A DNA stretch of 45,446 nucleotides from IMG/VR virus record IMGVR_UViG_3300048065_000509, positions 1 to 45,446 of that record; one strand, written 5' to 3'. The stretch is from a virus. The notes under the pieces are model-generated. The model saw only the letters and a program-made list of their open reading frames with translations. It was not told the origin of the DNA and searched no databases. The translations under genes were made by a program, and so were the position numbers. This document shows, in pieces, positions 3,081 through 45,446 of the stretch. The first letter of the stretch is position 1, and each line of letters begins with the position of its first letter.

Positions 3081-3119
3081 GGGGGCATGGCGGAATCGGT
3101 AGACGCACCAGACTTAAAA
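3081..3119 (+). other. attP: Probable attP: 5' part of tRNA-Leu(UAA)
   Basis: The sequence from gggggcatgg through the D arm (cggaatcggtagacgca) and the anticodon loop (cttaaaa, anticodon taa) reads as the 5' half of a cyanobacterial tRNA-Leu(UAA). It then diverges, so no complete tRNA is present. It lies just after int. A ~42-bp match to a host tRNA-Leu next to int is established for P-SSP7, so this is most simply the phage attachment core. An imperfect hairpin (ctcag-taag-ctgag inside cccag/ctggg) lies immediately upstream and could be an arm site or int terminator. Confidence 0.75.
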
Positions 3120-3174
3120 ACGGGTGTGTTCTACCTTCCGCTTGTGTATAAACCTTAGAGAGTTGGATCACACT

Positions 3175-3248: not shown

Positions 3249-5588
3249 ATGCATACAGAAGCTCAAATCCAGGAGCAAATAACGCTGGAACGTGAGCAAA
3301 TCCGACAGGGATTGGAGCGTCTCAGGGACAACACGGTCAAGCTTCAAGACAAGGAGTACGCATCAGCGTCTGTGTATGGCGTCAGCTCTATTGAAGAGCT
3401 GCTACCAAAGGTCATTCAACGGATCAAAGGCACAGCAAACCGCATTCATGAAGGAAAAACCGGCGTTGCCTTCACAGAGATACGCCACTACCTAGCGGAC
3501 ATCGAGCCAGAAGCAGCAGCTGCCATCGCTTGCAAGGTGACCTTTGACAAGGTGTTCTCAAGCAAGCGAAAGGCAAACCAGCTTCAGAACGTCACAGATG
3601 CCATAGGTAGTGCTGTGGAAAATGAGTGCATGATCCGCCACTACGAACGGAACGTACCCGGACTGCTACACACCCTTAAGAAAAACTACTGGCACCGATC
3701 AATCGGGACAGAACAAAAAGTGGTTGTCATCAAGACATTGATGAAACGCTACGAGGTGGAGCATTGGAAAGCATGGGGTATTGCTAACCGAATCAAGCTT
3801 GGCGGATGGTTGCTCGACTGCATATGCGTTACCAGTCAATGGTTTGATCGGGAACTACGCAGAGAAGGCAAGAAGACATTCACCTTTGTCAATCCGACAC
3901 CTGAATTCCTGGAAATCAGGGATGAAGTGATGGCAACTGCTGAGCTGTTCAGTCCACTTGCTTGGCCGATGTTGATAGAGCCAAACGATTGGACCAACAA
4001 AAGGCAAGGCGGATACATCCTCAATGAAGTGATGAAGGGCTACAACATGGTTCGTAGAAGCGATCCCACCCTTATACAGGGAGAAACACCAATCACCTTT
4101 CTGAACCATATTCAGAAGGTTGCATACACACTTAATCCATTCATTGTTGGTGTCGCTGAGACACTGCAAGAACGTGGTATCGAGTTAGGTAAGTTTGTCC
4201 CTGTTGTTGAATTACCTCTTCCACCAAAGCCTGCAGATATTGCTGAGAACTACGATTCTCGGAAAGACTATAGGCGTAGAGCAGCAGAGGTAATGAATGT
4301 CAATGCTCAACAGTTTAAAAGGTCATGTCGTACAAGAATGACCATGAATGCAGTCAAAGTATTCAAAGATAAAGATAAGTTCTTTATTCCTTGGAGCTTT
4401 GACTATCGCGGTAGAGCTTATCCGATTCCTGCATTCTTGACACCACAAGATACAGATTTTGGTAAGTCTTTGCTGACCTTTCATGAACAAGCCTTCATGA
4501 CGCATGACGCTGAAGGTTGGATCAGATTTCAAGTAGCAACTACATATGGACTAGATAAGTCCACAATGGAAGACAGACAAGATTGGGTTCTTCACAATCA
4601 TGATCTAATTACACGAGTTGCTACAGATCCAATCGGTAACTTATCTGATTGGGAGTCTGCTGATGAACCTTGGCAGTTCTTATCTAGTGCACATGAGTAC
4701 TACCATACGTGTATATTATGTGACAAGAACTACACATCATTACCCATTGCAGTTGATGCTACATGCAGTGGATTACAAATCCTTGCAGGTCTCGCAAGGG
4801 ATAAAAGTACAGCACAATTAGTAAACGTTTGTCCTAGTGATAAACCACAAGATGCTTATGCAGTCGTTGCTAGTACTGCTACTCCTGAGTGCCCTGATTC
4901 TATTCGTAATTATATGGATAGAAAGGTAGTCAAAAGAGTAGTTATGACCGTACCTTACAATGCAAAACCATACTCAAACCGTGGGTACATACGTGATGCA
5001 TTAAAGGAAAAGGGTGTAGAACTAGAAAAAGAAGATCTAACAGCCACAGTCAAAGCAGTACGGGATGCAATGAATGTCATTGTTCCTGGTCCTATGAAAG
5101 TCATGAAATGGATTGAAAAGGAAGTATCTGCTGCTATCGATCGTGGTGAACAAGAACTTCAATGGTCAACACCTTCAGGCTTTGTAGTCACACAAAGACT
5201 AATGAAACCAGAAGTAGAAACAATTGAGTTACAACTACTAGGTAGATGTAAGGTCAAAGTAGCTACGACAGATAGCAACAAGGTAGACAAGTCACACCAC
5301 AAAAATGCAACAGCGCCGAATCTAATTCACTCGCTAGATGCAAGTCTCCTTCACCTATCTGCTATCCGATTTAATGCACCAATTGCTCTGATTCATGATT
5401 CTGTCTTGTGTCGTGCAACTGATATGACAATCTTGTCAGCATTAGTTAGAGAAACATACATGCATTTATTTGCAGAACAAGACTATCTGACATCTTGGGC
5501 AAACCAAATTGGAGCCGAAACAGAACCACCGATTATTGGCACACTCGAACCTGAGTCAGTAATTGAATCCACATACTTTTTTTGTTGA
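3249..5588 (+). CDS. rnap: Single-subunit T7-type RNA polymerase
   Basis: The 779-residue enzyme (T7: 883) transcribes middle and late phage genes. Hallmarks appear in order: SFDYRGRAYP near 380 (T7 DWRGRVY), VDATCSGLQ near 501 with the first catalytic Asp, KRVVMTVPYNAKPYS near 561 with the fingers Lys and Tyr, APNLIHSLDASL near 693, and IHDSV near 715 with the second catalytic Asp. It ends in TYFFC, where T7 has the functional FAFA end. The N-terminal specificity domain is the shortened part. A promoter-like 21-mer lies inside the gene at 4064, and base composition becomes visibly more AT-rich after that point. The stop overlaps the SSB start (TGATG). Confidence 0.97.
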   Translation: MHTEAQIQEQITLEREQIRQGLERLRDNTVKLQDKEYASASVYGVSSIEELLPKVIQRIKGTANRIHEGKTGVAFTEIRHYLADIEPEAAAAIACKVTFDKVFSSKRKANQLQNVTDAIGSAVENECMIRHYERNVPGLLHTLKKNYWHRSIGTEQKVVVIKTLMKRYEVEHWKAWGIANRIKLGGWLLDCICVTSQWFDRELRREGKKTFTFVNPTPEFLEIRDEVMATAELFSPLAWPMLIEPNDWTNKRQGGYILNEVMKGYNMVRRSDPTLIQGETPITFLNHIQKVAYTLNPFIVGVAETLQERGIELGKFVPVVELPLPPKPADIAENYDSRKDYRRRAAEVMNVNAQQFKRSCRTRMTMNAVKVFKDKDKFFIPWSFDYRGRAYPIPAFLTPQDTDFGKSLLTFHEQAFMTHDAEGWIRFQVATTYGLDKSTMEDRQDWVLHNHDLITRVATDPIGNLSDWESADEPWQFLSSAHEYYHTCILCDKNYTSLPIAVDATCSGLQILAGLARDKSTAQLVNVCPSDKPQDAYAVVASTATPECPDSIRNYMDRKVVKRVVMTVPYNAKPYSNRGYIRDALKEKGVELEKEDLTATVKAVRDAMNVIVPGPMKVMKWIEKEVSAAIDRGEQELQWSTPSGFVVTQRLMKPEVETIELQLLGRCKVKVATTDSNKVDKSHHKNATAPNLIHSLDASLLHLSAIRFNAPIALIHDSVLCRATDMTILSALVRETYMHLFAEQDYLTSWANQIGAETEPPIIGTLEPESVIESTYFFC
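4064..4084 (+). promoter_or_regulatory. Putative phage RNAP promoter inside the RNAP gene
   Basis: tcccacccttatacaggg followed by aga recurs at 43343 with only a one-base insertion after the shared 18 bases; the six bases upstream also nearly match. The right half resembles the T7 promoter core and start (TATA then GGGAGA). It codes for DPTLIQGE in the polymerase. A promoter here would drive the replication genes. The role is inference from the two copies and the T7 resemblance. Confidence 0.5.
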
Positions 5589-8124: not shown

Positions 8125-8233
8125 ACCTAATCCACCTACGGCTGAAGCAATTCAACGTGCACAGTTTGTAGATAAAACATACATCTGGAAAAATGCTGGT
8201 ATTCGACCTGGAGACAGACGGACTACTAAATGA
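8078..8233 (+). CDS. Putative overlapping small protein (51 aa)
   Basis: This ORF starts in the end of the helicase gene and ends within the exonuclease ORF, covering an otherwise unexplained 68-base gap. The product is basic and proline-rich at first (QLPISKPNPPTAEAIQRAQF) and ends GDRRTTK. No family is recognised, and overlap with both neighbours means it may be spurious. Confidence 0.35.
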   Translation: MNQQSKKSSTQLPISKPNPPTAEAIQRAQFVDKTYIWKNAGIRPGDRRTTK

Positions 8234-8708
8234 TCTTACCAAGATCCACTGCCTTGTTATTTATGACAGCGATACTGACACGACCATTGTGTACAACGAT
8301 CAAGGCAACGAAGAACCGATTGTTCGAGGGGTACAACGTTTAGAAGATGCTGATGTAATCGTTGGCCATAACATCATTGGCTTTGATATACCAGCAATCA
8401 GACGAATCTACCCATGGTTCATGCCAACTGCTTTTGTATTAGACACCTTATTGTTGTCACGTCTGTATCACACAGACATCCTTGAGATTGATAAGAAGAG
8501 AGGCGTATCAAACATGCCGCTTCAAACATACGGACGACACAGCCTTGAGTCATACGGCTACAGGTTAGGTGAATACAAAGGTGAGTTTGGCAAGACAACA
8601 GACTGGCAAGACTGGTCTCCAGAAATGGAAACGTATTGCTGTCAAGACGTAAAAGTAACCACCAAATTATGCGACCACTTTCAAAAATACCTGAGTGGGT
8701 ACGACTAG
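8193..8708 (+). CDS. DNA polymerase 3'-5' exonuclease part (split gp5)
   Basis: The 171 residues match only the proofreading domain of T7-type family A polymerase. Exo I is VFDLETDG (DxE), Exo II is VGHNIIGFDIP, Exo III is YCCQDVKVT (YxxxD). The ORF ends SGYD where the homologous protein would continue into the polymerase domain. The polymerase domain follows at once in the -1 frame, and an A5 run (CAAAAAT, about 8681-8687) lies in the overlap. The parts may be separate subunits, a programmed -1 frameshift fusion, or the result of a lost A. Confidence 0.9.
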   Translation: MLVFDLETDGLLNDLTKIHCLVIYDSDTDTTIVYNDQGNEEPIVRGVQRLEDADVIVGHNIIGFDIPAIRRIYPWFMPTAFVLDTLLLSRLYHTDILEIDKKRGVSNMPLQTYGRHSLESYGYRLGEYKGEFGKTTDWQDWSPEMETYCCQDVKVTTKLCDHFQKYLSGYD

Positions 8709-9949
8709 AGCACGAAGTTGCTCAATTATTAACTGAACAAGAACTACATGGATGGTACTTTGATGAACATGCTGCATGGAAACTTGCATCAACTCTCAGA
8801 AAAGAGCTTGAGCAAACTTGTCAACTACTACGTGACAGGCACCCTTTCGTTGCGGGATCAATATTTACTCCTAAGCGAAATAATCGGACCCAAGGCTATG
8901 TCGCTGGCGCTGAAAGTACCCGCTTAAAAGAAACAAATCCCACATCACGAGATCATATTTCATGGATTTTGCAAACGTTCCATGGCTGGAAGCCGACACA
9001 ACTGACAGCTACTGGGAAGCCGATTATCGACGAGATTGTACTGAAGGAGATTGTTGCGTCCGGTGGACCAGCGATTGCTTTGGATTTTCTGAAATGTCTA
9101 GATATTACGAAGAGCTTGGGGATGATCTCCGAAGGCACCAACGCATGGCTCAAGCTATGTACGACTGCTAGTCGGATACATCACCATTGTTCAGTTGCAA
9201 CAAACACGCACAGATGTGCACACCGTAAACCAAACTTAGGCCAGACAAAAAGTGACCCTGAATTTAGAAAACTATTCCAAGCATCCCCTGGTCAAATTAT
9301 GGTGGGTGCCGATCTTAGCGGGATTGAGTTACGCATGCTCGCCCATTACCTTGGACGTTGGTCTTCCGAATTTGGAGATACCCTCCTTACCGGAGACATC
9401 CATCAAGTCAATGCCGATCGAGTTGGAGTCAGTAGGCGACAAATCAAAACCATTAGCTATGCCTTCATCTATGGGGCAGGGAATGAAAAAATCGGTTATT
9501 CCTACGACCCCCTTCTAAGCAGTGCCAAAGCTAAGAAGAAAGGTAAGGAAATTAGAGAAGCATTCGTTTCTGCTATTGATGGACTTGCGGAACTATTGGA
9601 AGCAATCAAAGAGAAAAGTAAAGAGGGTTATATCCGCTCTATTGATGGACGACACATCAAAGTAGATAGTCCACACAAAGCATTGAACTACTTGCTGCAA
9701 TCAGGAGCTGGTGTCATTGCAAAACGATGGATGACCATCAATCACACTCACATTCAAGAACTAGGGTTGTGTGCATCACAACTAGCATTTATACATGACG
9801 AACTACAATTCGAGTGTCACCAAGACCACGCACAAGATTTATCAGCATCCCTGGTACTTAGCAGTGCAGAAGCTGGTGAATACTACAAACTCAGAGTCCC
9901 AATCACAGCAGAAGCCAAAATCGGAGCCAATTGGGCGGAGGTGCATTGA
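8669..9949 (+). CDS. Family A DNA polymerase, polymerase domain (split gp5)
   Basis: The product is 426 residues from ATG 8669. Motif A is GADLSGIELRMLAHYLG, motif B RRQIKTISYAFIYGAG, motif C FIHDELQF. In motif B the residue equivalent to E. coli Pol I Phe762 / T7 Tyr526 is Tyr, a form associated with virulent phages. The protein lacks its own exonuclease, which is in the overlapping upstream ORF. ATG 8669 lies 40 bases inside that ORF. The TGA overlaps the next ATG, with a GGCGGAGG ribosome site for the exonuclease gene inside the last codons. Confidence 0.93.
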   Translation: MRPLSKIPEWVRLEHEVAQLLTEQELHGWYFDEHAAWKLASTLRKELEQTCQLLRDRHPFVAGSIFTPKRNNRTQGYVAGAESTRLKETNPTSRDHISWILQTFHGWKPTQLTATGKPIIDEIVLKEIVASGGPAIALDFLKCLDITKSLGMISEGTNAWLKLCTTASRIHHHCSVATNTHRCAHRKPNLGQTKSDPEFRKLFQASPGQIMVGADLSGIELRMLAHYLGRWSSEFGDTLLTGDIHQVNADRVGVSRRQIKTISYAFIYGAGNEKIGYSYDPLLSSAKAKKKGKEIREAFVSAIDGLAELLEAIKEKSKEGYIRSIDGRHIKVDSPHKALNYLLQSGAGVIAKRWMTINHTHIQELGLCASQLAFIHDELQFECHQDHAQDLSASLVLSSAEAGEYYKLRVPITAEAKIGANWAEVH

Positions 9950-18751: not shown

Positions 18752-18815
18752 CTTACGTTCATCCTTTAGGACGCATGCCGCCTAGTCATGGAACGGGGGC
18801 TAGGTAATTGGAATT
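18752..18815 (+). ncRNA. Putative structured RNA downstream of psbA
   Basis: The stretch has a small hairpin (tcc-ttta-gga region near 18762), a GC-rich core (gacgcatgccg) and a second stem CCTAG ... CTAGG (18781-18803 region) enclosing catggaacgggg. The 286-base gap between the small gene and the capsid contains no long ORF. In kind it resembles the structured RNAs reported beside hli/psbA genes of marine phages (wcaG, PhotoRC), but I cannot assign it. Confidence 0.35.
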
Positions 18816-31418: not shown

Positions 31419-33035
31419 ATGGCAACTACACAAACTACATACACAGGGAATGGTTCTACAACGAACTATTCATTTACATTTGAATATATCAAGCAAGCTG
31501 ATGTTAAGGTAACACTTGACACGGTTGCTACAACTGCATTTACATTTGCTAACGCTACAACGTTGGCATTCACTACAGCACCAGCAAATGGTGCAGCTAT
31601 CCGTATCTTCCGTGATACAGATATTAATACATTGAATGCAACGTTCTTTCCAGGCTCCGCCATCAAAGCCGAGGATTTAAATACTAACTTCACTCAATCA
31701 CATTTTGCTGTACAAGAAGCTGACTTTGATGTTGTCACAGCAAACACTACGGCTGAATCTGCAGTTACGACTGCTAACTCTGCTGTAACGACTGCTAACG
31801 GAGCAGTGACTACTGCTAACTCAGCCAATACTAAATCTGATGCTGCGGTTGCTACTGCAAACACTGCTGATACGAACGCTAGTGCTGCTGTAGCTACTGC
31901 TAATACAGCATCTACTAACGCTACAAATGCTGTTAATACGGCTAACACTGCAAGTACGAACGCTACTACAGCAGTTAATACAGCAAATACTGCTACCACT
32001 ACAGCAAACGGAGCAGTAACGACTGCTAACTCAGCTGCTACAGATGCTGCTACAGCAATTACAACTGCTAACTCTGCAACCACAACTGCTAATACGGCAC
32101 TAGCTAATGCTGCTACTGCTACTACAACAGCTAATGGTGCAGTTACTACAGCTAATACGGCAGACACAAATGCTACTGCTGCGGTAACTACAGCTAATAC
32201 AGCTGATACCAATGCTACGGCTGCTGTGGCAACGGCTAACGCAGCTCAGAGTGCTGTGTCTGGTGCTGCTTTCTATTCACCTGTTGCAAACATAGCAGGC
32301 ATTCCAGGATCACCTAGTGATGCTGATCGTGTTGAAGTAGCTGATTCAACGGGTATCCAAAGCTTTACACCGTTGACTGGTTATCCAGTTGGCTTTACTG
32401 GTAGCTCTGGTCTTACAGCACGTATTCAATATAGTTCTTCAGGTTCTACCTGGAACTGGGTTGATTACTTTGCTAATGATCCAGAGGATAGGTACTTTAC
32501 TAAAGCAAATGGTAATACTAATACTACTAATATTGCTACTAACGTTACTAATATTGCAGCAAACATAACTACACTTGCTACCAAGATGCCACTAGCTGGC
32601 GGTACTTTTACTGGTGCTGTTAGCTTTGATGATAATGTTATTGTCAAAGGTGATGGTACAAATGGTAGTGGTGAACTAACTCTTAACTGTGAGAATAACT
32701 CTCACGGTATTAAGATTAAAGGACCACCACATAGTGCCGGTGCTAACTATACGCTGACACTACCTAATACTACTGGTACTAACGGTCAGTTCTTATCTAC
32801 TAATGGTAGTGGTGCATTGTCTTGGGGTACAGCAGATGTATCTTCCAGACTTGCTCTTACTGGTGGCACTATGACAGGTTTTATTACCTTACATGCTGCA
32901 CCTACAGCGACCTTACATGCTGCTACTAAACAATACGTTGACGATAACAAAGTAATTGCAATTGATGCAGGAAACTTTGATAACGGAACATCTACTATCT
33001 CATCTACTTTGACTATTGACGGAGGATCATTCTAA
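31419..33035 (+). CDS. Tail fibre (gp17-like N-terminus) with heptad-repeat stalk
   Basis: The 538-residue protein starts with the conserved T7-type fibre attachment module (YTGNGSTTNYSFTFEYIKQA, IRIFRDTDINTLNATFFPGS, IKAEDLNTNFTQ). Residues ~107-281 are about 25 seven-residue repeats of the type TTANTAV, a coiled-coil stalk. A C-terminal region has fibre-type repeats (LTLPNTTGTNGQFLSTNGSG; KMPLAGGTFTG; LTGGTMTGFITL) and LHAATKQYVDDNK. It lacks a clear host-binding tip, which may be supplied by the next two proteins. ATG 31419 has GGGCA upstream only. Confidence 0.9.
   Translation: MATTQTTYTGNGSTTNYSFTFEYIKQADVKVTLDTVATTAFTFANATTLAFTTAPANGAAIRIFRDTDINTLNATFFPGSAIKAEDLNTNFTQSHFAVQEADFDVVTANTTAESAVTTANSAVTTANGAVTTANSANTKSDAAVATANTADTNASAAVATANTASTNATNAVNTANTASTNATTAVNTANTATTTANGAVTTANSAATDAATAITTANSATTTANTALANAATATTTANGAVTTANTADTNATAAVTTANTADTNATAAVATANAAQSAVSGAAFYSPVANIAGIPGSPSDADRVEVADSTGIQSFTPLTGYPVGFTGSSGLTARIQYSSSGSTWNWVDYFANDPEDRYFTKANGNTNTTNIATNVTNIAANITTLATKMPLAGGTFTGAVSFDDNVIVKGDGTNGSGELTLNCENNSHGIKIKGPPHSAGANYTLTLPNTTGTNGQFLSTNGSGALSWGTADVSSRLALTGGTMTGFITLHAAPTATLHAATKQYVDDNKVIAIDAGNFDNGTSTISSTLTIDGGSF
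31737..32261 (+). repeat. 21-bp imperfect tandem repeats coding heptads
   Basis: About 25 consecutive imperfect 21-base units (type act-gct-aac-aca-gct) encode Ala/Thr/Asn heptads in the fibre gene. The regular 21-base period makes unequal recombination likely. It also creates a long open frame on the opposite strand that is only a shadow. Confidence 0.85.
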
Positions 33036-40775: not shown

Positions 40776-41609
40776 ATGCCTAATAGTTATCTTAACGGAG
40801 AAATACCGGAAGAAATTGCGATGCAATGGAGGGATGAGTTTTTTCAAGAACGATTAGACAATCCTGAAGCTAAACGTAGATCAGTTCAAAAATCATATAA
40901 AGACAAAAACTATACTATTGAGCTTGATAATAGAAAATCACTTGGTGTAAGATTTAGACATTCTTCAGAGCGTACTGCTAAGACAAATCGGCGTCGCAAG
41001 AAACTGTCTAAACCAAAACTTAGCTCAATAGAAAATATGATGATTGACAACCTCTATGAAGAAGGTTCTAGGCGTGGCCTAGATGTTGATCATAAAATTT
41101 CTGCAAAAGATAGAGGCTTTCATCACCCATCTAATATGGGTTTAATGCAGAAAAAAGAAAATGGACGAAAAGGTGGCCGTAGTGATTATCATAATTTTAA
41201 ATATGAGTCGTTAGAAGAACCTAAAAAAAATGGGAACGGTCATAGCAACGGTAACGGTCACAGTAATGGGAACGGGAACGGAAACGGTCACTCCAACGGC
41301 GACAAAACAACCGTCAATGTTGTAGGTGGTGTTGCTAAATTACGAATACTAAGAGCACTAGCACCTGGACCTTTAAGTCTTGGTTTAGCTGCAGCAACAT
41401 TCGGGCAAAGTGCTCAGGCTGCTGTTAAAAATCCAACAGCCGCAACAATTGAAGATGCCTCTTGGGATACAGCTAATTTAGCTGCAGACTTAATTGGTTT
41501 AATACCTACACCATTCACTGTAGGTGCCTCTGAGGCTCTACAAAAAGGTCTAAGTATTGGTCATACAGCACGTTTGGCACAACGTAATTTTCATAATTTT
41601 AATAAATGA
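40776..41609 (+). CDS. HNH-like protein with NGNGHSN repeats
   Basis: The 277-residue protein has a basic N-terminal half with an HNH/EndoVII-like motif (GLDVDHKISAKDRGFHHPSN, then MGLMQKKENGRKGG: D-H ... H ... N ... N). A tandem low-complexity linker NGNGHSNGNGHSNGNGNGNG (residues ~152-172) follows. The C-terminal half is hydrophobic/helical (LRILRALAPGPLSLGLAAAT; LAADLIGLIPTPFTVGASEA). The start is ATG 40776, with no room for a ribosome site, or ATG 40821, which has GGAAG upstream. It overlaps the terminase start. A packaging nuclease partner or virion protein is possible. Confidence 0.7.
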   Translation: MPNSYLNGEIPEEIAMQWRDEFFQERLDNPEAKRRSVQKSYKDKNYTIELDNRKSLGVRFRHSSERTAKTNRRRKKLSKPKLSSIENMMIDNLYEEGSRRGLDVDHKISAKDRGFHHPSNMGLMQKKENGRKGGRSDYHNFKYESLEEPKKNGNGHSNGNGHSNGNGNGNGHSNGDKTTVNVVGGVAKLRILRALAPGPLSLGLAAATFGQSAQAAVKNPTAATIEDASWDTANLAADLIGLIPTPFTVGASEALQKGLSIGHTARLAQRNFHNFNK

Positions 41610-43336
41610 CAAACGTCCTAGAGGCGTTACAAGATGACTTCAAGTTGTTCCTACAAGCTCTGTGGGGACAACTCGATCTTCCTACGCCGACTCGCGCTCA
41701 ATACGCTATCGCTGACTACCTACAACACGGTCCTAAACGCCTACAAATTCAAGCTTTCCGAGGAATCGGTAAATCGTGGATTACTGGTGCCTTCGTGTTG
41801 TGGACATTATTTAAAGACCCAGAAAAGAAGATCATGATTATCTCCGCTTCTAAAGAGCGTGCAGACAACATGTCTATCTTCTTACAAAAACTAATTATAG
41901 AAACACCTTGGTTAAAACACTTACAACCCAAATCAGACGACTCACGCTGGTCTCGTATCAGCTTCGATGTCAACTGTTCTCCCCACCAAGCACCTTCCGT
42001 CAAGTCTGTCGGGATTACTGGCCAACTAACCGGCTCTCGCGCTGACTTAATGATCCTTGACGACATTGAAGTTCCTGGTAACTCAATGACTGAAATGATG
42101 CGTGAAAAACTACTTCAGTTATGTACTGAAGCTGAATCAATCCTTACTCCTAAAGATGACTCCCGCATCATGTACTTAGGTACTCCTCAGACCGTCTTTA
42201 CGGTCTATAGGAAGCTTGCAGAACGTAACTATAGACCATTCGTATGGCCAGCACGTTTCCCGCGCTCTCTGTCTAATTACGAAGGGCTCATAGCTCCTCA
42301 ATTACAAGAAGATATTGATCAAGGTGCTGATAAATGGAATGTAACTGACCCTGACAGATTTAATGATGAAGACCTTATTGAACGTGAAGCAGCAATGGGC
42401 AGAAGCAACTTCATGCTTCAGTTCATGCTTGATACCTCCCTTAGTGACGCTGAAAAGTTCCCACTTAAAATGGCAGACCTTATCGTTACTTCCGTTAATC
42501 CCGATACTGCTCCTGACTCCATCGTCTGGTGCTCAGACCCAAGGAACTGCATCAAGGATCTCCCAACAGTTGGTCTTCCTGGAGATTATTTCTACTCTCC
42601 AATGCAACTCCAAGGAGAATGGCTTCCTTACCAAGAAACAATCTGCTCGGTTGACCCATCGGGCCGTGGCACGGATGAAACAGCAGCAGCTTTTATTTCC
42701 CAACGGAACGGTTTCTTGTACTTGCACGAAATGCGTGCTTACAGAGATGGATACAGTGACAACACACTCTTGGATATTCTAAGAGGTTGTAAAAAGTTTA
42801 ACGTTACTAAACTTGTAATCGAAACTAACTTCGGTGACGGTATCGTCGCTGAACTATTTAAAAAACACTTACTACAAACTAAACAAGGTATTGATGTCGA
42901 AGAAGTCCGAGCCACCGTACGGAAAGAACAAAGAATCATTGACACCATGGAACCCGTTCTTAACCAGCACCGCCTTGTTGTGGATCGCTCTGTTATTGAT
43001 TGGGACTACAACTCCAACAAAGACGCAGCCCCAGAATCAAGACTCCTCTACATGCTCTTCTATCAAATGAGTCGCATGTGCCGTGAAAAAGGTGCTGTTA
43101 AACACGATGACAGACTTGATTGCCTCTCTCAAGGTATCCAATACTTCACAGATGCAATGTCTATCTCCGCTCAAGAACAAGTCAATATGCGTAAACGTGA
43201 TGACTGGAATGACATGCTCCGTGCCTCAATAGATGACCCTCAAGGCTCCGCTAATCACCTCGTTTTAGGTCTCGATAAAGACCAAAGACAACTAGCTAGA
43301 CGTAATTCCCAAACCTCAGTCCCTAACTGGGTTTAA
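41606..43336 (+). CDS. terL: Terminase large subunit (gp19-like)
   Basis: The 576-residue motor has Walker A FRGIGKSW near residue 51, Walker B with LMILDDIEVP near 151, and coupling motif YLGTPQT. The RNase H-type nuclease carries SVDPSGRGTDET near 350, VIETNFGDGIV near 400 and HDDRLDCLSQ near 500. It packages concatemeric DNA into proheads. It is followed at once by a promoter-like element and two hairpins. Confidence 0.96.
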   Translation: MTNVLEALQDDFKLFLQALWGQLDLPTPTRAQYAIADYLQHGPKRLQIQAFRGIGKSWITGAFVLWTLFKDPEKKIMIISASKERADNMSIFLQKLIIETPWLKHLQPKSDDSRWSRISFDVNCSPHQAPSVKSVGITGQLTGSRADLMILDDIEVPGNSMTEMMREKLLQLCTEAESILTPKDDSRIMYLGTPQTVFTVYRKLAERNYRPFVWPARFPRSLSNYEGLIAPQLQEDIDQGADKWNVTDPDRFNDEDLIEREAAMGRSNFMLQFMLDTSLSDAEKFPLKMADLIVTSVNPDTAPDSIVWCSDPRNCIKDLPTVGLPGDYFYSPMQLQGEWLPYQETICSVDPSGRGTDETAAAFISQRNGFLYLHEMRAYRDGYSDNTLLDILRGCKKFNVTKLVIETNFGDGIVAELFKKHLLQTKQGIDVEEVRATVRKEQRIIDTMEPVLNQHRLVVDRSVIDWDYNSNKDAAPESRLLYMLFYQMSRMCREKGAVKHDDRLDCLSQGIQYFTDAMSISAQEQVNMRKRDDWNDMLRASIDDPQGSANHLVLGLDKDQRQLARRNSQTSVPNWV

Positions 43337-43342
43337 GAGCGG

Positions 43343-43364
43343 TCCCACCCTTATACAGGGGAGA
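43343..43364 (+). promoter_or_regulatory. Second putative phage RNAP promoter
   Basis: tcccacccttatacaggg then gaga matches the element at 4064. Counting the upstream six bases, 24 positions carry only about two differences. Seven bases after the terminase stop, it is placed like T7 phi-OR, near the genome end. Alternatively its ccaccct arm can pair with agggtgg downstream, so it may be part of a hairpin. Confidence 0.5.
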
Positions 43365-43386
43365 TAGAGGGTGGACTATCTCTTTT
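43361..43386 (+). terminator. Terminator-like hairpin 1 after terminase
   Basis: A 7-bp stem (gagatag / ctatctc) with loop agggtgga is followed by four T. It overlaps the end of the promoter-like element, so the two may work together (promoter followed by processing hairpin, or terminator only). Confidence 0.6.
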
Positions 43387-43392
43387 GTACTA

Positions 43393-43419
43393 GAGGAGGG
43401 AGACAATCCTTCCTCTTTT
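43393..43419 (+). terminator. Terminator-like hairpin 2 after terminase
   Basis: An 8-bp stem (gaggaggg / ccttcctc, one G-T pair) with loop agacaat is followed by four T, seven bases after hairpin 1. The tandem pair probably ends the late transcript. Confidence 0.65.
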
Positions 43420-43592
43420 CTAATATCCGCTGAATGGATATTCCGTAAAACACCGCAACTAACACTGACACATTAACTTGTACTTGTTCTAAATAACATC
43501 TATCTCATCTTATTACCATGTATGTAATTACTGTTTGAGATCCGTGTTATAGGGTACAGCTGCGTTAGTTAATTAATTACATATGTTATTTA

Positions 43593-43904
43593 ATGAAAGA
43601 ACTACAGTTTGAAGGTAATGAACAAGACTGTTCCTTTACTTATCATCGTGCACGTGAAGGCCCTAACTTCTTTATATCTCATTATAAAGGCTCTACACGG
43701 GGTCACAATGACCCTAAAGAATGTTGGCGTACTCTCGGTGTAGCTAAGTTCACTGATTCCGGTAAGGCACTTAAACAATGGTGCCTAGATATGGACGAAC
43801 AATACGGTGATACTCAGCTTGAACCTCGTGTTGATACTTCTTTCGCTTCTGAAGTACAGGATGAAGAAGTCTCTCCTACTGATAATACTAAAATGGTTAT
43901 GTGA
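43593..43904 (+). CDS. Hypothetical right-end protein (103 aa)
   Basis: The product is polar, beginning MKELQFEGNEQDCSFTYHRA and ending in an acidic segment (ASEVQDEEVSPTDNTKMVM). The middle (ECWRTLGVAKFTDSGKALKQ, WCLDMDEQYGD) is suggestive of a small globular fold. It lies 256 bases after the terminase, like gene 19.5 in T7, though no similarity is recognised. It overlaps the next ORF (ATG in its stop). Confidence 0.6.
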   Translation: MKELQFEGNEQDCSFTYHRAREGPNFFISHYKGSTRGHNDPKECWRTLGVAKFTDSGKALKQWCLDMDEQYGDTQLEPRVDTSFASEVQDEEVSPTDNTKMVM

Positions 43905-45325: not shown

Positions 45326-45446
45326 AACAATTCCATCCACTTATGGATGGTTTTTTCTTTGCCCTTTGGGCTTCACAATCACCAGGGACGCAGCTCAATG
45401 CAATTAGTACTCCACACCAAGGACACAACGCGGCGCATCCTTAAGC
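45326..45446. repeat. Terminal direct repeat, right copy (121 bp)
   Basis: The sequence is identical to bases 1-121. Here it directly follows the early gene ending at 45308, whose terminator it contains. The copy of ATG 73 is at 45398, but its ORF is cut by the window end. Confidence 0.95.
45333..45356 (+). terminator. Rho-independent terminator after early gene (right copy)
   Basis: The same 7-bp hairpin and T run as at 8-31 lie 25 bases after the stop of the acidic early gene, the natural position for a terminator or attenuator between the first two early genes and the micro-gene chain. Confidence 0.8.

Follow-up and report, generated by a model that had tools for sequence, protein, structure and literature searches.

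Why does a short sequence inside the RNA polymerase (RNAP) gene of a T7-like phage recur just past its terminase gene, and could the two copies be the promoters that this polymerase reads? The window analyzed here, that is, the whole 45,446-nt stretch of IMG/VR record IMGVR_UViG_3300048065_000509, represents the genome of a T7-like cyanopodovirus, complete or nearly so, both ends of which carry a 121-bp direct repeat. Its genes include those for integrase, T7-like RNAP, replication, psbA, and large terminase, and among named phages it is closest to S-RIP2, KBS-P-1A, and S-SBP1. Positions 1–121 equal 45326–45446 exactly, which points to a complete genome that is either terminally redundant or was assembled with an overlap. 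Based on sequence comparisons, we consider it very probable (roughly 95%) that the two motifs, here termed P1 and P2, are the two promoters of this ocean cyanophage's own T7-like RNAP, a reading drawn from the presence of two copies only, from positions homologous to those in phage Syn5, and from covariation with polymerase contact regions. The features concerned are as follows.

3249..5588, + strand: T7-like single-subunit RNAP gene, 779 aa, containing P1 (from the gene list and homology)
4063..4081, + strand: P1, predicted intragenic phage-RNAP promoter, −13 to +6, predicted +1 at A4076; identity with P2 runs from 4059 (from the repeat, Syn5 homology, and codon bias at I276/Q277)
41606..43336, + strand: large terminase gene, with P2 beginning just past its stop
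43342..43360, + strand: P2, predicted right-end phage-RNAP promoter, −13 to +6, predicted +1 at A43355, 19 nt past the terminase stop
2077–2997: integrase gene

Two motif copies at Syn5-like positions

An earlier note on this DNA had pointed to two near-identical motifs at 4064 and 43343, inside the RNAP gene and after terminase, and exact searching and the gene coordinates bear this out. The sequence TCCCACCCTTATACAGGG is found exactly at 4064–4081 and 43343–43360 only, with no other site in the genome at up to three mismatches; the first copy lies in frame within the RNAP gene (codons D272–G278), and the second starts 7 nt past the large terminase stop. The near-identity had been put at 24 bases including a trailing (g)aga, of which a repeat of 23 nt at 96% identity stands (4059–4081 versus 43338–43360), while past the GGG the copies are unlike (AGAAAC versus GAGATAG). 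That such a pair is unlikely to arise by chance was likewise upheld, as CCCACCCTTATACAGGG is exact at 4065–4081 and 43344–43360 and nowhere else with up to three mismatches, against a chance expectation of 0.04 in the window. Apart from one weak 20-mer, the only other long-range repeats of at least 20 nt in the window belong to the tail genes or to the 121-bp terminal repeat. A tandem repeat array with 42-nt spacing occupies 31710–32287 within the ORF at 31419–33035, which is probably a tail gene by position. No sigma-70 −35/−10 hexamers with 16–18 nt spacing were found in 43300–43600, so P2 fails as a host promoter.

The Syn5 promoter ATTGGGCACCCGTAA has been experimentally defined, and Syn5 has two promoters only, one of them within the RNAP gene (PMC3950665). 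We found ATTGGGCACCCGTAA exactly twice in the Syn5 genome: one copy (nt 4929) falls within the RNAP gene, the other (44797) lies 6 nt past the terminase stop, and both sites are homologous in position to the two motifs in the window. The second Syn5 promoter reportedly lies near the right genome end, in agreement with the post-terminase copy found. The window has the makeup of a Syn5-type system throughout: one copy inside the RNAP gene at about codon 271–280, one just 3′ of the large terminase near the right end, two copies only per genome, and a single-subunit RNAP of the T7 type whose contact residues match. Window and Syn5 thus share two promoter sites per genome, one within the RNAP gene and one directly past terminase, as well as the TA before +1, the CACCC core, and a hairpin after the right-end copy, but differ in sequence, with GTCCCACCCTTAT followed by ACAGGG in the window versus TGGGCACCCGTAA followed by GCAAGG in Syn5 (+1 being A and G, respectively), and in the loop of the hairpin after P2 (AGGGUGGA in the window versus AGUGGUGC in Syn5). 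According to the Syn5 literature, its polymerase initiates at this promoter in vitro.

Private motif pairs and covarying polymerase residues

An exact search of IMG/VR for the motif returned 31 contigs, in which it sits, judging by flanks, in RNAP-coding or directly post-terminase-stop settings, and one contig has both. Most of the relatives compared carry their own versions of the motif in both places. Among named cyanopodoviruses, the motif sequence varies and the two-place arrangement is constant: P-SSP7 has AACCCCTACGTATACAGGGG at both places, S-TIP37 has GGGAGAsAGGACATGTATACAGG (s = G or C), P60 has AATTGGTGACAGTAAGCAGGG, SS120-1 has ATTACAGGGATGTAAACAGrGAGA (r = A or G), S-TIP28 has CAAAGGGGGCCCACTACGCTGGG, and S-CBP42 has CATCTGGCCCATGTAAGCAGGGAGA. 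Sampling covered marine cyanopodoviruses and freshwater relatives; the pairs of S-CBP42 (split terminase) and S-B28 (weak match) were read by hand and then recomputed. KC465899, considered as a T7-like pelagiphage, was dropped, the record being HTVC008M (myovirus-like).

Across the 36 genomes or contigs with both copies, 12.0 of the 13 positions from −13 to −1 are identical between the two copies of one genome, versus 7.95 of 13 for copies from different genomes, a value reached in 0 of 20,000 permutations, and no such own-copy effect was present in flanking control stretches up- and downstream of the copies in the same set. When each genome was searched with its own 12-mer (n = 25), exactly two sites were found in most, including most complete or near-complete genomes, and the remainder had one extra weak match, one diverged copy, or a displaced copy. 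Agreement was imperfect in S45-C4, S-B28, NATL1A-7, and L124 (10/13 each) and in L092 (7/13). The latter is the sole contig with strongly discordant copies and may be recombinant or misassembled; it is a possible natural promoter mismatch. In S-B28, an additional promoter-like copy (ATGACACCCGTAAACAGGGGGAGAA) lies on the minus strand at about 42352, in the early region, and the post-terminase copy is weaker.

The resemblance could also be ascribed to coding conservation plus chance, given that IQGE, the peptide encoded at the RNAP copy, is partly conserved, but the probability of this is practically nil: the chance expectation in the window is low, the pairing recurs in 36 genomes with different sequences, and I276 and Q277 are locked in their synonymous codons. 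Specifically, Ile276 is always ATA (28% elsewhere in the RNAP gene), Gln277 is CAG in 97% (39% elsewhere in the gene), and Gly278 is GGA or GGG only (35% elsewhere in the gene). Codon choice at 276–278 is overridden by the promoter.

Covariation was assessed for 281 RNAP genes with 115 distinct promoter versions, by pairing every promoter base with 608 RNAP columns, promoter-encoded columns excluded, and computing mutual information with average-product correction; the Syn5 polymerase query had two IMG/VR relatives only, which leaves the Syn5 clade with few representatives in this set. The strongest pairs were −8/668, −5/210, −10 and −11/660, −4/178, and −9/666, and seven pairs had z > 10 for the real promoters versus a mean of 0.03 for 59 equal-length pseudo-promoters from the same gene. 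Position −7 had no clear partner residue among the 281 RNAPs. When close RNAPs with different bases at one promoter position are compared, they also differ at the matching residue in 84%–97% of cases (mean column, 13%–17%); for −13, −12, −11, −10, −9, −8, −5, and −4, this residue is the top-ranked of 674 columns. The signal comes mostly from the RNAP-gene copy, so linkage could contribute; terminase-side copies alone (n about 30) show the same base-residue associations. The covarying codons in the window, each placed by covariation, are listed here.

3456..3461, + strand: K70–T71, region of the T7 AT-rich recognition loop (K95/R96); covary with −12/−13
3780..3782, + strand: I178; covaries with base −4
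3861..3878, + strand: R205–T210, region of the T7 intercalating hairpin; covary with −5/−6
5226..5252, + strand: E660, R666, and K668 of the specificity loop; covary with −10/−11, −9, and −8

In the alignment to T7, residue 660 corresponds to N748, 205–210 lie at N233–D240, and 70–71 at K95–R96; we take N233–D240 to be the extent of the T7 intercalating hairpin and K95–R96 that of its AT-rich recognition loop. Enzymes of this kind read promoters through an AT-rich loop, an intercalating hairpin, and a specificity loop (PMC7939475), and in T7, N748 contacts −10/−11, R756 contacts −9, and Q758 contacts −8 (PMC5937735). As aligned, the covarying residues match the promoter-contact regions of T7. 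Plain alignment pairs R666 with T7 Q754 and K668 with T7 R756, in each case two residues short of R756 and Q758, respectively; based on −9 C going with Arg and −8 T with Gln, as in T7, we infer that 666 and 668 take the roles of R756 and Q758, with a shorter turn in the specificity loop as the presumed cause of the offset. The base-residue code is chemically sensible, with A at −8 going with Lys, C with Arg, G with Glu, and T with Gln or Asn; C at −10/−11 with Glu or Asp, and G with Lys; C at −9 with Arg; and G at −4 with Arg. In the window phage, E660 would read C at −11/−10, R666 C at −9, K668 A at −8, T210 C at −5, and I178 T at −4. As in T3, D or E at the position of T7 748 goes with CC at −11/−10.

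The presence of an integrase gene, together with the nature of the motif as a short repeat, raises the alternative that this integrase uses the pair as an att site for recombination or integration. This is exceedingly improbable, however, with 0 motif matches among the species genomes of bacteria and archaea searched (84,980), retention of the pair in S-SBP1 and S-RIP2, which have no annotated integrase, and covariation partners that are RNAP contact residues. A better and likely attP candidate is the partial tRNA-Leu-like GGGGGCATGGCGGAATCGGTAGACGCACCAGACTTAAAAAC at 3081–3124, beside and downstream of the integrase gene, as reported for P-SSP7. The earlier proposal that the pair defines the promoter of the phage polymerase is supported by the Syn5 positions, the concerted divergence, and the base-residue covariation.

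Predicted start site, hairpins, and transcripts

Gapless alignment of CACCCGTAA followed by GCAAGGAGA with CACCCTTAT followed by ACAGGGAGA places +1 at A4076 and A43355, and transcription is predicted to start at this A (the first of ACAGGG, after TAT) to within about 1 nt. Shifting +1 to the GGG would lose the contact register, which independently supports A4076 within about 1 nt. A start at the GGG, as first suggested, is therefore probably wrong, and +1 is put 3 nt upstream. Two predicted RNA hairpins follow P2.

43355..43388, + strand: first RNA hairpin, 13 bp with three G-U pairs, starting at the predicted +1; clade-conserved loop AGGGUGGA and covarying stem
43392..43424, + strand: second hairpin, 10 bp, followed by a U-rich run, terminator-like

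Folded from 43355, the RNA with both hairpins has −31.4 kcal/mol (z −4.25), and the three G-U pairs in the first stem favor an RNA rather than a DNA structure. The loop GGGTGGA (AGTGGTG in the Syn5 group) lies 3′ of the promoter in 114 of the 116 contigs with enough sequence. Among 75 distinct versions, the first three stem pairs are kept at 97%–99% with several base-pair types, and the five inner pairs are paired in 80% versus 61% in shuffled arms. A 3′ TGT tends to accompany promoter ACA at +1 to +3 (Fisher p 7e-5, relatedness not corrected). Rfam families matched none of the post-terminase hairpins up to E = 1. In five Syn5-group contigs (L036, L048, L049, L051, and L053), TGTGTGGATTTGCGGTGA or variants of it are conserved directly past the first post-terminase hairpin.

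That the terminase copy runs into a conserved hairpin, whose loop GGGTGG could pair with CCACCC in the window, suggests another reading, in which the copies are a shared binding site or structure in both transcripts and the DNA is not a promoter. Nonetheless, the loop GGGTGGA is constant while the upstream sequence varies freely (CCCCTAC in P-SSP7, AGGACAT in S-TIP37), so pairing is not kept, and a CCACCC/GGGTGG pseudoknot was rejected on these grounds. With no hairpin seen at the RNAP copy and covarying residues that are RNAP DNA contacts, an RNA-level element is very improbable.

With P1 and P2 read as promoters, early genes including the polymerase gene would be transcribed by the host RNAP, after which the phage RNAP would fire from P1 within its own gene to give one late transcript of about 39 kb, reaching the terminase gene. 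It would also fire from P2, yielding a short structured transcript or read-through into the genome end; the hairpins suggest that the P2 transcript is probably a short structured RNA. The hairpin may serve as such a short RNA, stabilize a 5′ end, or act as a transcription brake. More specifically, P2 may make a discrete 65–70 nt RNA with a 5′ hairpin from +1 and a 3′ terminator hairpin, whose loop AGGGUGGA (AGUGGUGC in the Syn5 group) binds a factor, a proposal to which we give somewhat less than even odds; if true, a host or phage factor would be bound, for example in concatemer processing or late transcription control. Syn5 RNAP aborts when an elongating enzyme meets an initiating enzyme at a promoter (Syn5 literature), and P2 may accordingly help to end the 39-kb late transcript.

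In T7, the promoters close to gene 1 and to the right end have further roles, as origin and in concatemer processing, and P2 is about 2 kb from the terminal repeat. Use of the copies as replication origins or packaging signals, instead of or besides promoter use, is nevertheless unlikely, albeit credible: it does not exclude promoter use, the T7 roles running through phage RNAP transcription, and the covariation indicates that it is RNAP that reads the copies.

Comparison with T7 promoters and published predictions

Like the promoters of T7 and T3, those predicted here go with a single-subunit RNAP and share a TATA-like melting region, a GGGAGA-like start, and the contact regions, but they differ in having two copies (T7 has about 17), a predicted start at an A upstream of the GGG, and no match to the T7 core. 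The window falls outside the T7 class sensu stricto, with its T7 core and many spread copies, having two copies and the core CCCACCCTTAT. T7 phiOR and phi1.1, which lie near the right genome end and near the polymerase gene, occupy places comparable to P2 and P1, although P1 is inside the polymerase gene and P2 is followed by a terminator-like hairpin.

The promoter had been called poorly known for this clade, which holds in part: the two-promoter arrangement is already published for Syn5, whereas in the openly readable literature, where absence is not proof, we found no description of promoters of the P-SSP7-like clade, of private co-evolving pairs, or of a readable base-residue code. In the accessible parts of a 2024 screen (PMC11475235), the promoters predicted for P-SSP7 (AAAATTCTTCAAGTTTACAA) and S-CBP42 (CACTTCCACTCAACCAACCG) bear no resemblance to the pairs AACCCCTACGTATACAGGGG and CATCTGGCCCATGTAAGCAGGGAGA, prediction failed for 18 of 44 polymerase families, and 8 of 26 enzymes were active, with the P-SSP7 and S-CBP42 RNAPs not named among them. 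Promoters of most cyanopodovirus polymerases have so far been unavailable, and taking the sequence common to the RNAP gene and the post-terminase stretch gives a specific promoter prediction per phage. With more than 100 polymerase-promoter pairs, the set is in effect a naturally occurring library with a readable base-residue code. The evolution of promoter switches becomes testable too, because only two sites and a handful of residues must shift jointly for specificity to change.

Elsewhere in the window, a glutamine-II riboswitch aptamer (Rfam RF01704) lies at 18753–18805, between psbA and the capsid gene, and the DNA polymerase at 8193–9949 consists of two overlapping ORFs (exonuclease and polymerase parts), annotated likewise in P-SSP7 and S-TIP37.
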